DNA from: Myxococcales bacterium
GTDB lineage: Bacteria; Myxococcota_A; Polyangia; Polyangiales; Houyiibacteriaceae
Assembly: GCA_019637115.1 (NCBI GenBank)
Contig: JAHBWH010000027.1
Coordinates: 1-63,103 of the forward strand
DNA length: 63,103 bases
Direction of reading: 5' to 3'
Part shown: one piece after another, positions 1,206-13,447 of the stretch
Layout of the letters: every line of letters starts with the position of its first letter
Position numbering within the stretch: position 1 is the stretch's first letter
Position numbers and translations under genes: made by a program
The notes under the pieces: generated by a model
Seen by the model: only the letters and a program-made list of their open reading frames with translations
What the model was told of the DNA's origin: nothing
The model's database searches: none

Positions 1206-1546
1206 CCCAAACTCCGATGACCTGGGAGCGTGCCTTCGAGGTGCTCGAGCTCGCGCCGGACGCGAGCGCGAAGGACCTCAAGCGCGCGTACCGGCGAGCC
1301 GTCGCGGCGAACCCACCGGATCGCGCTCCGGAGGCCTTCGAGCAGATCCGCGCCGCGTTCGAGCTGCTGGACGATCCGACCGCCGCTTACCAGATGCTCC
1401 ATCGCCCCGACGCGGCGACGCCCCCGCTGCGTGTGCGTCGCCCCGCGGCCGTCGAGGTCGAGCGCGACCTGCCGCTCGCGGTGCTCCGCGTGCACGTGAG
1501 CGGGCTCGAGGTGGACGCGCTGCTCGGAGGACGCGATGACGGGTGA
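1202..1546 (+). CDS. Degenerate J-domain (DnaJ-like) protein
   Basis: A 114-residue protein whose first 65 residues align by eye with a J domain: WERAFEVLELAPDASAKDLKRAYRRA, then a loop, then FEQIRAAFELLDDP. J domains stimulate Hsp70 ATPase through an invariant HPD tripeptide. Here the loop reads ANPPDRAPEAF, so the His is replaced (NPPD). The ATG at 1202 is preferred over a longer upstream start because it overlaps the preceding stop. The ORF ends 11 bp inside the downstream GrpE-like gene. It probably serves the DnaK encoded at 3382, either as a non-activating J-like adaptor or through a changed contact; that is inference. Confidence 0.75.
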   Translation: MTQTPMTWERAFEVLELAPDASAKDLKRAYRRAVAANPPDRAPEAFEQIRAAFELLDDPTAAYQMLHRPDAATPPLRVRRPAAVEVERDLPLAVLRVHVSGLEVDALLGGRDDG

Positions 1547-2240
1547 GATCGGCGGGTCTGGTGGGCTCGCCCGGCCCGAAACGAGCCAGGAGGAGGATGG
1601 GCGTCCGTCCTGGGTCGCCGAGCTCCTCGTGGAGGTGCGCGGCGTCGGCGCGGACGGCGCACGGCCGGCGTGGGTCGACGAGCTGCTGACGGAGCTGCGG
1701 CGCGCCGGGCGAGCCGCGGTCGCGGCGCGCGCGGCGGCCGAGTCGTGCGAGCAGCGGCTCGAGTCGAGCGCGGTGGCACGCGCGGAGCCCACGTCGAGCG
1801 GCGCGGCGCACGAGGCGTCGACTGACGCGGCGCCCGAGCACGTCGGGAGGGCCGAGGGAGACGACCATGGCGTGGTGCGGCTCGTGGAGGCGCTCTTGCC
1901 GACGGTGGATGCGCTCGCGCGCATGTCCGTCGCGACCGCACCGAGTGAGCCGCGGGCCCTCTGGCAGCGGCTCGGCCGCGGGCGAGAGCTCGCCGAGCTG
2001 AAGGCGTTGCGGGACGGGATCACCGTCCTCGACGCGCAGCTGACGAGCGCGCTCGAGGCCTGTGGCGTCTCGCTCGACCGCGAAGTGGGGGGGCCGGTCG
2101 ACGGCGACCGACACCGGATCGTCGAGACGGTCGCCGTCGGGCCCGGAGAGCCGAGCGGCAGGGTCCGAGCGGTCGTCCGAGCGGGCGTGAGCTTCGGCGG
2201 ACGTCGGCTGCGCGAGGCCGACGTCATCGTCACGCGCTAA
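1536..2240 (+). CDS. GrpE-like nucleotide exchange factor
   Basis: A 234-residue protein. The C-terminal 70 residues follow the GrpE beta-domain pattern: GVSLDREVGGPVDGDRHRIV, then a short loop, then GRVRAVVRAGVSFGGRRLREADVIV. Before it lies a helical segment (WQRLGRGRELAELKALRDGI) in the position of the GrpE dimer helix. The N-terminal 110 residues are Ala/Glu-rich and low in complexity. GrpE releases ADP from DnaK. It overlaps the J-like gene by 11 bp. The divergence from canonical GrpE suggests a specialised Hsp70 system; a housekeeping set probably exists elsewhere (inference). Confidence 0.7.
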   Translation: MTGEIGGSGGLARPETSQEEDGRPSWVAELLVEVRGVGADGARPAWVDELLTELRRAGRAAVAARAAAESCEQRLESSAVARAEPTSSGAAHEASTDAAPEHVGRAEGDDHGVVRLVEALLPTVDALARMSVATAPSEPRALWQRLGRGRELAELKALRDGITVLDAQLTSALEACGVSLDREVGGPVDGDRHRIVETVAVGPGEPSGRVRAVVRAGVSFGGRRLREADVIVTR

Positions 2241-2367
2241 GTACAGCGAACCGGAAGTTCGTAACCAGGGAAAAGGGGCGCCCGTCCAGCAAGGCGCGAC
2301 GAGGGAGCGGGCTGCTCACCCGTGACTGACGAGCAACGCAGCTGGACTGGATGGATCTGCCGCAGCT

Positions 2368-2383
2368 TGTACTAATAAGTACA
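2368..2383. promoter_or_regulatory. Palindrome, candidate operator for the small-ORF/nucleotidyltransferase pair
   Basis: TGTAC-TAATAA-GTACA is a perfect 5-bp inverted repeat around an AT spacer, unusual in this GC-rich gap. It lies about 60 bp before the ATG at 2442. The sequence TAAGTACAG at 2376-2384 recurs at 2238-2246, across the grpE stop codon. An operator or transcription start for the pair is plausible; no regulator gene is evident in the pair itself. Confidence 0.35.
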
Positions 2384-2441
2384 GGACCACCTCGGTGTGC
2401 GCGGACGCCTCGGCGGCGCGGATGGTGCTACCTTGCCGAGT

Positions 2442-2693
2442 ATGCGCGACGACGACCTTCGCCGCTTCGCCTCGCGTCCTTGGAGCGAAGCGTCAACGCT
2501 CAAGGCGGAGTATTGGGCCGCGCGCAAGCGCGTTGAGGGCGCTGCAGTCGGACTCGAGGTCTCACGCGCCCTCTACGAGCAGATGCGCGCACGCCGCCCC
2601 GACTGGCCGTCGGTGCAAGAGCGGGAAGAGGACCTGCTGACGCACATCCGCGTCGCTGCGGAGTTGCGCCATGTCACGCTTCGAAATCGATGA
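2442..2693 (+). CDS. Small protein paired with nucleotidyltransferase
   Basis: An 83-residue protein starting at ATG 2442 (MRDDDLRRFASRPW). A longer frame reaches 2397 but has no better start. It contains an SRPWSEASTLKAEYW segment followed by a helical, arginine-rich region and ends LRHVTLRNR. I know such small proteins as frequent upstream partners of Pol-beta-fold nucleotidyltransferases in environmental bacteria; their function is unknown. It overlaps the nucleotidyltransferase start at 2671 by 23 bp, so the two are translationally linked. An antitoxin-like or substrate-presenting role is conjecture. Confidence 0.7.
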   Translation: MRDDDLRRFASRPWSEASTLKAEYWAARKRVEGAAVGLEVSRALYEQMRARRPDWPSVQEREEDLLTHIRVAAELRHVTLRNR

Positions 2694-3249
2694 CGTCCTG
2701 CGCGATCTCGCCTCCGCATGCGCAGAGCTCGGCCGGCGCTGGTACCTCTTCGGTGCACAAGCCGTCGCGGTGCACGGCCGTCCCCGGCTGACCGCGGATG
2801 TCGACGCGACGCTCGACGCAGATCCACAGGACGTCGACGAGGTCGTCGGCGCGCTCGTTCGGCACGGTTTCGAGGTCCGAGTCGAGGATCCTCGGTCCTT
2901 CGTCGAGCGGACGCGCGTCCTCCCGCTCGTCCACCACCGCTCGACGTTTCCGCTGGACCTCGTCTTTGCGGGGCCAGGGCTCGAGCAGGAGTTCCTGTCG
3001 AACGCGCGACTCCACGTGCTCAGCTCGGTGAGTGTCCCCGTGATCGCCGCGGAGGATCTCGTCGTCGCGAAGTTGCTTGCGGGCCGCCCCCGCGACATCG
3101 AGGATGTCCGCGGGATCCTGCTCGAACGCGGGACCTCGCTCGACCGCGCTCGCATCGACGACTTCTTGCGACTACTGGAGGAGGCGCTCGATCGTAGCGA
3201 CCTACGCTCGAGCCTCGCCGCGCTCATCGAGGCCCGCCCACGGCGCTGA
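2671..3249 (+). CDS. Nucleotidyltransferase-fold protein (AbiEii/MNT-like)
   Basis: A 192-residue protein. The core FGAQAVAVHGRPRLTADVDATL has the Pol-beta nucleotidyltransferase signature: a small-residue turn (G28-A29) and the metal-binding pair D43-x-D45. A later conserved segment, AAEDLVVAKLLAGRPRDIEDVRGIL (about 130-155), is typical of the AbiEii/DUF1814-like group. Such proteins transfer nucleotides to RNA or protein and occur in toxin-antitoxin and abortive-infection modules. The gene sits between grpE-like and dnaK-like genes in the same orientation, 132 bp before dnaK. Whether it belongs to the chaperone operon or is an insertion cannot be told from sequence alone. Confidence 0.8.
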   Translation: MSRFEIDDVLRDLASACAELGRRWYLFGAQAVAVHGRPRLTADVDATLDADPQDVDEVVGALVRHGFEVRVEDPRSFVERTRVLPLVHHRSTFPLDLVFAGPGLEQEFLSNARLHVLSSVSVPVIAAEDLVVAKLLAGRPRDIEDVRGILLERGTSLDRARIDDFLRLLEEALDRSDLRSSLAALIEARPRR

Positions 3250-3381
3250 GCTCGCCCGTCAGGGCGCGCGATTGGGAACGGAGCTCGAGATGACGGGTGC
3301 GGCGGGTCGTCTGGCCGCTTGGTTCTCGGCGGTGATTGAGAGGGCCTTGCGGCGACGTCGCAGCGCGGTACCGTCCGCCGC

Positions 3382-5151
<1,770 letters not shown>

Positions 5152-5360: not shown

Positions 5361-6734
5361 TCAACGGGTCCGCAGCGGCTCGCAAGTGTAGGCGTTCACG
5401 CACTGCCAGCAGCCATCGACGATGATCGCCGTTCCGTCGACGCCACAGTCGGGCCGCAACGCGCGGCAGGTGAGTCGCTCGCGGGTGGCGCAGCGGCTCA
5501 CTTCGCACGCGGCGACGCAGTCGTCGCAGACCGGACAGGACCCGTGCGCGCATGGGTTGCACCACTCCTGGTTCGCACAGTCCCCGTCCGTCCGGCACGC
5601 CCGCGAGCCGGGCGCGCACTGCCCGTAGCAGACCGCGGGGCACGCCTCATCCCCGCTGCAAGGGGACAGACACTCGCTGTGGTCGCAATAACCGCCGCGG
5701 CCGCAATCGTCGTCCGCGAGGCAGTACGGGCGCTCGATGCGGCACTCTCCCTCGTGCGCGATCCGGACACCCGCGCAGTTCGCGTGGCAGACGCTGCTGT
5801 AGGTGCGACCATCCACGCCGCAGACCGGAGCCCAAATCTCTGGGCAGACGCAGCCTGGATCGATCGGGACGCAGTAGCTGACGCACGAGCCCTCGCAGGC
5901 GCCGCCCGGCTCGCAGCCCTCGCACGCCGTCGCGCAGCTGTACCCTGGGCCGCAGTCGCGGTCGCTGCGGCACTCGGGGGTGACGTGCCGTGGCTCGCAG
6001 GTGCCGGTGGGTGAGGGGGCGGGTGGCGCGCTGCATTCCCCCGCGTATGCGATGGCCACGCCGGCGCAGCGCGCGTTGCAGGGGTTGCCATAGGTCTCGC
6101 CGTCTACGCCGCAGACGGGATCCCACTCGCGCGTGCACGAGCACCAACTGGCTTCTCCCTCGCACGTTCCATAGCAGACGTCGGGGCAGGGTAGACCCGG
6201 CTCGCAACCAGGCGGCGCGAGGCAAACCTCCGCGGCGTTGCACCGAGCGCCGTCGCCGCAGTCGGCGTCGGAGTAGCACCCTCGGCGCGGGCGGTCGCCA
6301 TCGTCGACGGGCGTATCCCCATCGAACACGCAGAGCTCGTCGGCGCGGCAGTCCGCATCGGAGAGGCATCGCGTCGGCCCCGTCGTGCAGCGCCCGTAGC
6401 AAACCGCGATGCAGGCCTCCGCGCCATCCGGGCAGCCGCTCAGGCACTCCGAGTGGTCACACCACTGTCCCAAGCCACAATCGCTGCTCGCGAGGCAGAG
6501 GCGCTCGGACTCGCACTCGCCCTCGTGAGCGACCTCGACGCGTGCGCACGCCGCCACGCACTCGTTGCCGTAGGTCATCCCGTCCGCGCCACAGACGGGG
6601 GCGTAGATCAGGTTGCACACGCAGTCGGGATCCGGACCCGGGTCGGGGTCTGGATCGCCGTCACACCCCCGCGCGCCGACGAGGAGCGGGAGGGTCGCGA
6701 AGCAACAGAGAAGCCAAAGGTGTCGTGTACGCAT
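5361..6734 (-). CDS. Secreted multi-Kazal-domain cysteine-rich protein
   Basis: A 457-residue protein starting [20 protein letters not shown], a signal peptide; C24 may be a lipid anchor but the lipobox (ARGC) is not canonical. Three Kazal domains are visible at about 38-74, 198-234 and 295-331, each with the pattern C-x-C-x5-PVCG-DG-x-TY-x3-C-x2-C-x8-H/YxGEC. Kazal domains inhibit serine proteases; in bacteria they are often only adhesion or structural modules. Between them are further Cys-rich repeats ([15 protein letters not shown] and similar). A longer frame to 6905 lacks a signal peptide, so ATG 6734 is preferred. The protein is probably exported to the cell surface or medium; the target protease is unknown. 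Confidence 0.85.
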
Positions 6735-6954
6735 GTCGAGTCTCCCCGGAAGCTCGTGTGCCGATGTGCGCCTCGGAGAGGCCACATCCGATGGGTGGAG
6801 ACGCGGGTCGACATCCGTCACTCGATTCCTCGCCCGTCGCGTGCCCTCGGAGAGGGGGAGGTGCGCGATCCTCGCCGGTCGCCCCGGAGCGGAGGCCGCG
6901 GACACCCTCGCGACATTCGGCGCGCCATCCGCCGAGCCCCTTCGTCGGGCGAGC

Positions 6955-12813: not shown

Positions 12814-13056
12814 GTGAGCGATGCGGAGTTCGACAAGCGCGCTGAGGAGCGCCGCGGGCGGTTGACGGGGGGCGTCGCGCGCTCGTTCGACGAGCTCGAG
12901 AGGGCGTCCCTCGAGTTCTGGAGCCGCGCGTCCTACGCCTCGAAGCTTCAAGCCACGCACGACGCGATCGTGGAAGCATGGATAGTTCAGGGGCGGCATG
13001 GACCTCCACCCAGATTTGACGGATCTACTTGGGGCGTTCTCAAGCTCGGGTGTTGA
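12814..13056 (+). CDS. Small protein paired with second nucleotidyltransferase
   Basis: An 80-residue protein starting at GTG 12814 (MSDAEFDKRAEERRG); the ATG at 12812 is out of frame and stops at once. It has the helical core ARSFDELERASLEFWSRASYASKL and ends GPPPRFDGSTWGVLKLGC. It overlaps the nucleotidyltransferase start at 12998 by 59 bp. The layout copies that of the pair at 2442-3249, though the two small proteins share little obvious sequence. It is a likely translational partner; the role (antitoxin, adaptor) is unproven. Confidence 0.65.
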   Translation: MSDAEFDKRAEERRGRLTGGVARSFDELERASLEFWSRASYASKLQATHDAIVEAWIVQGRHGPPPRFDGSTWGVLKLGC

Positions 13057-13447
13057 GTATCTCGTCGTGGGGGGGTGGGCGGTTGCCGTGCACTCGGAGC
13101 CACGGTTCACGAAGGACCTCGACCTCCTGATTGGGCCGTCGCCGGAGAACCTGGAACGCGCCGCAGAGGCGCTGCAACGCTTCGGTGCGCCCATGTCGAT
13201 CGTCGAGCAGGCGCGCTCGCTCGGGCCGGACGAGTTCTTGTTTTTCGGCACGCCCCCCACGAGAGTCGATCTGCTTCGCGCGATCCCAGGGGTCGACTTC
13301 GCCGAGGCGTTCGGCCGCCGCGTCGACGTGGCCTGGGCGGGCACCGTCGTCCATGTGATCGGGAAGGCGGACCTCATCGCCGCGAAGCGCGCGGCTGGAC
13401 GCGAGAGGGATCTGCGCGATCTCCGAGCGCTCGAGCGAGAACGTTGA
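12998..13447 (+). CDS. Nucleotidyltransferase-fold protein (DUF6036-like)
   Basis: A 149-residue protein. YLVVGGWAVAVHSEPRFTKDLDLLIG carries the nucleotidyltransferase signature GG (25-26) and the metal pair D40-x-D42. A later VIGKADLIAAKRAAGRERDLRDLRAL matches the conserved K/R-D segment of this group. It is shorter than the copy at 2671. The start at ATG 12998 lies inside the small upstream gene. Both catalytic Asp residues are present, so activity is plausible. Known relatives occur as toxins (MenT/AbiEii-like) or as uncharacterised pairs; no direct evidence for toxicity is visible here. Confidence 0.8.
   Translation: MDLHPDLTDLLGAFSSSGVEYLVVGGWAVAVHSEPRFTKDLDLLIGPSPENLERAAEALQRFGAPMSIVEQARSLGPDEFLFFGTPPTRVDLLRAIPGVDFAEAFGRRVDVAWAGTVVHVIGKADLIAAKRAAGRERDLRDLRALERER

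Follow-up and report, generated by a model that had tools for sequence, protein, structure and literature searches.

A probable MenAT1-type toxin–antitoxin module inserted between grpE and dnaK in a Myxococcales bacterium

Introduction

HEPN-MNT pairs (type VII toxin–antitoxin systems) are recognized by their gene order and by an R-x4-6-H motif. In the AbiE systems (type IV), the antitoxin AbiEi (COG5340) has a winged-helix domain. MenAT1 is formed by the toxin MenT1 (Rv0078A) and the antitoxin MenA1 (Rv0078B), with a small gene lacking a DNA-binding domain upstream of a nucleotidyltransferase of about 190 amino acids. The mutations D41A, K137A and D152A abolish the toxicity of MenT1, while a T39A mutant is still toxic, as described in PMC10435456. 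According to PMC11375011, T39 is the site of an autophosphorylation induced by MenA1, and MenAT1 has no transcriptional autoregulation.

We describe here a pair of genes with the same layout as MenAT1, found in a Myxococcales bacterium (contig JAHBWH010000027.1). The whole stretch of DNA that we have analyzed, 63,103 nt, is called the window. NT is used as an abbreviation for the nucleotidyltransferase ORF at 2671–3249, and the small ORF at 2442–2693 is called the partner. This pair is probably a toxin–antitoxin module of the MenAT1 type, with an antitoxin of an unnamed four-helix family, which has moved into the junction between grpE and dnaK.

Results

Organization of the locus

An earlier note on this DNA described a small ORF and a nucleotidyltransferase with an internal overlap, located between grpE-like and dnaK-like genes. 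This arrangement is indeed present, and the overlap between both ORFs is 23 nt. The features of the locus are:

3–1205: protein with weak TPR matches, first gene of the chaperone cluster
1202–1546: DnaJ-domain protein, second gene of the chaperone cluster
1536–2240, plus strand: GrpE-like gene (PF01025, E 1e-8), TAA stop codon at 2238–2240
2241–2372, plus strand: copy of a mobile repeat, 132 bp, a MITE-like inverted-repeat element
2368–2383, no strand assigned: palindrome TGTACTAATAAGTACA, formed by the element right end TGTAC, TAA, TAA and a left-end-like remnant GTACA
2429–2434, plus strand: -10-like box TACCTT, located 13 nt upstream of the partner ATG
2442–2693, plus strand: partner, 83 amino acids, predicted antitoxin with four helices (ATG at 2442, stop at 2693)
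2671–3249, plus strand: NT, 192 amino acids, predicted MenT1-type toxin (T41, D43, D45, D96, K134, D145)
3369–3374, plus strand: -10-like box TACCGT, located 13 nt upstream of the start of the dnaK-like gene
3382–5151, plus strand: DnaK-like gene (Hsp70; PF00012, E 1.4e-115)

The genes with TPR, DnaJ and GrpE matches are tightly packed, the end of each one overlapping the start of the next. The gap between the GrpE-like and Hsp70 genes is 1,141 bp and contains both ORFs of the pair. As a functional unit, the pair extends over approximately 2429–3249; the start given in the earlier note, 2368, lies on the right end of the mobile element. Downstream of dnaK there is a cysteine-rich ORF on the minus strand (5361–6905), Kazal-like by eye.

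The nucleotidyltransferase

NT belongs to the AbiEii/DUF1814 superfamily. It is above the Pfam cut-offs for DUF6036 (PF19502, 32.5 bits against 23.6) and AbiEii (PF08843, 23.2 against 22.5). MenT1 (8an4) is its best solved relative in profile searches (E 3.1e-15 for a profile of 10 sequences, 1.2e-18 for one of 58) and is also at the top of a Foldseek search (E 2.9e-10), with an identity of about 26%. The AlphaFold2 model of NT has a pLDDT of 96, and VIA-align superimposes it on MenT1 with Z 19.6 and an rmsd of 2.8 Å over 179 residues. The next family is ANT(2'')-Ia (Z 13.8), and LnuA has Z 11.9.

The catalytic residues are conserved. D43, D45, D96, K134 and D145 are invariant in all 58 aligned NT sequences, and position 41 is T in 38 of them and S in the other 20. 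T41, D43, K134 and D145 align with T39, D41, K137 and D152 of MenT1; this correspondence was counted by hand on the profile alignment, in which the chain numbering is one lower. The conservation of T/S at position 41 is in itself no argument for toxicity, because the T39A mutant of MenT1 remains toxic.

The partner protein and its promoter signature

The window partner has no match in Pfam, NCBIfam, PADLOC or PDB, and NT does not match the PADLOC defence library either. When 58 partner members were compared with Pfam, only scattered weak matches were found, in one or two members each, the best one with E 0.0012 (DUF7739). The AlphaFold2 model has four helices (pLDDT 94, pTM 0.60); a Foldseek search with this model gives no PDB match, which is no proof of a new fold. 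Three residues are nearly invariant among the 58 members: R61 (54), D64 (57) and H68 (55), all in the last helix of the model. Among the titles and abstract openings listed in literature searches, none mentions this family.

No similarity to any known antitoxin is detectable in profile, Pfam or Foldseek comparisons. The partner has 83 amino acids and four predicted helices, as against 68 amino acids and two resolved helices in MenA1 (PMC10435456). There is neither a PDB sequence match nor a Foldseek match between them, and MenA1 is a short two-helix chain which offers little to match. The partner is not an antitoxin of the AbiEi/COG5340 type: Its model is all-helical and none of the 58 members has such a Pfam match.

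In 59 of 76 loci, a TANNNT box begins 11–20 nt upstream of the start of the partner, and for 53 of these boxes the distance is precisely 12 or 13 nt. Every other 10-nt bin of the 200 nt upstream contains this motif in only 0–5 of the 76 loci. This position of the box suggests that the partner has its own promoter and a leaderless translation.

Association of the two genes

A contig scan gave 136 relatives of NT, and the best 80 were used as related loci. They are distributed over Acidobacteriota, Myxococcota, Rokuibacteriota and Gemmatimonadota, together with one bin that carries the label Cyanobacteria. As in MenAT-type pairs, NT has a cognate small gene: A match to the partner profile lies directly upstream in 79 of these 80 loci, including a weak one (L130, E 0.0008). 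In the exception, L063, the match is 54 bp from the start of the contig. Both genes overlap in 74 of the 78 loci in which both starts could be assigned, 65 of them by 20–29 nt; our script chose the NT start nearest to the expected overlap, so that these lengths lean in that direction.

A survey of 309 genomes of the class, in which 17 partner and 10 NT candidates were scored per genome, yielded at least 67 partner matches and at least 89 NT matches. The 49 best of the 89 NT matches all have a partner match on the same strand at 400 bp or less, which covers at least 69 of the 84 model positions. Pairing is obligate among the best matches. Weaker NT matches are mostly without partner; in ten which we have inspected, either a different small ORF lies upstream or no ORF can be recognized.

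Two other types of small ORF should be noted. NT genes of a sister clade (L223, L225–L232) have different small ORFs directly upstream, coding for 73–88 amino acids, which are perhaps further antitoxin families. A comparison with PDB gave nothing credible for them, and we do not claim homology with the partner (hhalign 5.5%). The window itself contains a second, different pair of a small ORF and a nucleotidyltransferase on the plus strand: an ORF from a GTG at 12814 to a stop at 13056, overlapping an NT-like ORF of 149 amino acids (12998–13447), with a TATTCT 12 nt before the GTG.

Orphan antitoxins are to be expected, orphan toxins are not. All 13 places where a partner is without NT match were inspected, together with the four of lower rank in which the NT match is partial. 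A full partner beside a fragmented or absent NT is found in eight places (G089, G107, G034, G218, G066, G093, G206 and G306). They become ten if we include G292 and G074, which have half an NT and a partner whose match begins at position 7 or 10. The rest are two places at a contig edge, one shortened partner and four with decay in both genes. An intact NT beside a broken partner was not found among the places inspected in the 309 genomes. This asymmetry points to NT as the toxin and the partner as the antitoxin, and is only suggestive because the length of NT is 2.3 times that of the partner, and random damage alone would give eight of eight with a probability of about 0.06 (0.03 for ten of ten), and because several of these places come from draft assemblies.

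Insertion in the chaperone operon

A GrpE search in 317 genomes of the class (9 candidates scored per genome) gave at least 10 others with this type of GrpE. DnaJ-, GrpE- and DnaK-like genes are consecutive in nine of ten related operons (L031, L145–L152), with a GrpE–DnaK interval of only -13 to +27 bp. Their DnaK has 54–67% identity with that of the window over the aligned parts. L153, the tenth operon, differs in its DnaK alignment and was left out of the interval measurement. The comparison of this interval among relatives had been proposed in the earlier note: Neither gene of the pair is detected (E up to 0.01) in any of the nine measured operons. Since grpE and dnaK are in contact in these relatives, the pair is an insertion into the chaperone operon. 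The suggestion that a module similar to toxin–antitoxin systems had been inserted here is thus borne out, NT being a relative of MenT1. All ten operons compared come from outside the family of the window; in the single congeneric genome (89% complete), neither this GrpE nor the first gene of the cluster has a match.

Base composition also differs: The GC3 of the pair genes is 0.76 and 0.82, below the value of 0.90 found in grpE and dnaK. In a phylogenetic tree, the window NT is apart from the NTs of its own family (40–45% identity), and its nearest relative is acidobacterial (53%), a placement which is weakly supported. A horizontal transfer of NT is likely, judging from these sequences. The -10-like box TACCGT could give dnaK its own promoter and keep it expressed.

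A mobile repeat beside the pair

The palindrome and the repeated 9-mer are located exactly where the earlier note had placed them: TGTACTAATAAGTACA at 2368–2383 and TAAGTACAG at 2238–2246 and 2376–2384, with no further copies in the window. Dinucleotide shuffling of the entire GC-rich window (n = 100) gives no copies, a control which flatters these motifs; some repeated 9-mer arises in 24% of Markov resamples of 2200–2450. In fact, palindrome and 9-mer are not due to chance: They are the ends of a mobile element.

We have searched the genome of this bacterium with 2241–3381, scoring 40 of 609 candidates. The 45 matches obtained are the sequence itself, 39 on its first 130 bp and five of a tandem repeat. 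Those 39 correspond to at least 38 other genomic places, one of them matched twice, and long matches among these other copies are 84–92% identical. As for the tandem repeat, a segment of 40 bp which starts at the NT stop (3248–3287) is identical to a stretch of a 33 bp repeat found in another contig (L252, 1327–1487), with 4.9 copies, in frame, within a long ORF which looks AddB/RecB-like by eye.

The anatomy of the element was inspected in 36 of the 38 other places and in the window copy (n = 37). It is mostly 154 bp long (modal full length), with inverted ends GTACAGC..CCGGAAGTTCGT and ACGAACTTCCGGGGAGCTGTAC. Our script placed both ends in 27 of the 37 copies; the left end is absent in five and the right end in another five. 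Identical 3 bp flanks are found in 20 of these 27 copies, all of them TNA: 14 TCA, 4 TGA, 1 TTA and the TAA of the window. Terminal inverted repeats, many copies and target duplications are the features of a MITE. The terminal repeats, the length of 154 bp and the 3 bp TNA duplications are shared with IS1031-like MITEs of the IS5 family, to which TNA target duplications are presumably tied. We have recognized no autonomous parent element. The region 2150–2500 has no Rfam match (E up to 1), and 2238–2384 folds little better than shuffled sequences (z -1.44, 19 of 200 equally good).

The right end, with up to two mismatches, is found 36 times in this genome. It is absent from the congener, and one of 16 other relatives searched has a single occurrence. 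The element is a lineage-specific expansion, and it probably arrived after the pair.

The window copy (2241–2372) is shortened inside its right terminal repeat. Its target duplication, TAA, is the grpE stop codon (2238–2240) and is repeated at 2373–2375, followed by the second TAAGTACAG, which resembles a remnant of a left end. Two other copies (L238 and L242) have a comparable end-to-end junction. The right end, the duplicated TAA and the left-end-like remnant abut at this point and together make up TGTAC-TAATAA-GTACA, which is therefore a junction between ends of the element. A role of this palindrome as an operator belonging to the module must be discarded: It has a single occurrence in the genome, also when one mismatch is tolerated, and TGTAC-N4..8-GTACA is absent from the 200 nt upstream of all 76 related pairs.

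Discussion

The closest known system is MenAT1. The toxin fold is the same and the catalytic T/S, D, K and D positions are kept; the low identity of the toxins, the different phyla and a partner without detectable similarity to MenA1 are the main differences. NT is also similar to AbiEii and DUF6036 in its Pfam matches, and the partner differs from the COG5340/AbiEi type named for MenA3 and MenA4 in PMC10435456. HEPN-MNT systems share with our pair the overlapping genes for a helical protein and a nucleotidyltransferase, as well as an R-x6-H motif in the small protein; NT is larger and MenT-like, and no HEPN match was detected for the partner with Pfam or hhalign.

From the homology with MenT1, we infer that NT would be toxic and that the partner would neutralize it. 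NT would be a toxin of MenT1 fold which most likely adds nucleotides to the acceptor ends of tRNA, so that translation would stop. The partner would be the first product, translated from a leaderless mRNA which starts at a promoter of its own, and the translation of NT would be coupled to it through the overlap of both ORFs. As an antitoxin, the partner is expected to bind NT and block its active site, and it might induce autophosphorylation at T41, as MenA1 does at T39 of MenT1. The location of the pair in a chaperone operon looks incidental.

The roles of both proteins might be inverted, as in HEPN-MNT systems: The partner would be an RNase toxin acting through R-x6-H (R61 and H68) and NT a modifying antitoxin. 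The near invariance of R61, D64 and H68 in the last helix speaks for this reading and could point to an enzyme, but the 58 members have no HEPN family among their Pfam matches, the fold has no PDB match and hhalign gives a probability of only 0.7% against 12 HepT-like relatives. NT is moreover of the MenT1 type, and it decays while the partner is kept, the opposite of what this arrangement would produce, which leaves it quite doubtful. The more specific form, in which a catalytic RNase (R-x6-H, with conserved K21, W25 and D64) is restrained through nucleotidylation by a MenT-fold NT with swapped roles, in Acidobacteriota, Myxococcota and other phyla, is to be considered very doubtful. It is also unlikely that NT is a modifying enzyme without toxicity and the partner its obligate small subunit; the substrate nucleotidylated by such an enzyme might be an aminoglycoside or another small molecule. 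Its structural likeness to ANT(2'')-Ia and LnuA would fit an enzyme of this kind; MenT1, however, is clearly closer and has the same two-gene layout, and it would be unusual for a subunit to be kept repeatedly where NT has been lost.

A functional link between Hsp70 and the module, with a chaperone-assisted pair tied to the neighbouring grpE and dnaK, had been raised in the earlier note and now seems most improbable. It could appeal to the position of the pair and to three places in two relatives (L046, L047 and L048) where a distant homologue of NT and an Hsp70 gene are no more than about 5 kb apart. However, the pair is missing from all nine measurable related operons, it carries its own -10-like box, and 78 of the 80 related loci have no Hsp70 match in flanks of up to 8 kb per side, often less. 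The two matches, L068 and a weak one in L126, are 5–6 kb away, and we have discarded an association of this NT subfamily with Hsp70. As a separate observation, the homologues in L046–L048 are on the opposite strand to Hsp70, and by a rough estimate their proximity is above chance.

If the reading of the pair as a MenAT1-type module is right, MenT toxins would have a multi-phylum branch with an antitoxin family which is unnamed in the libraries searched. It would provide 58 aligned pairs in which T/S41 of the toxin is always kept, and it could then be tested whether the autophosphorylation induced by MenA1 and MenA3 is a general rule which extends to unrelated antitoxins. This locus also illustrates that the ends of a mobile repeat can masquerade as a regulatory palindrome.
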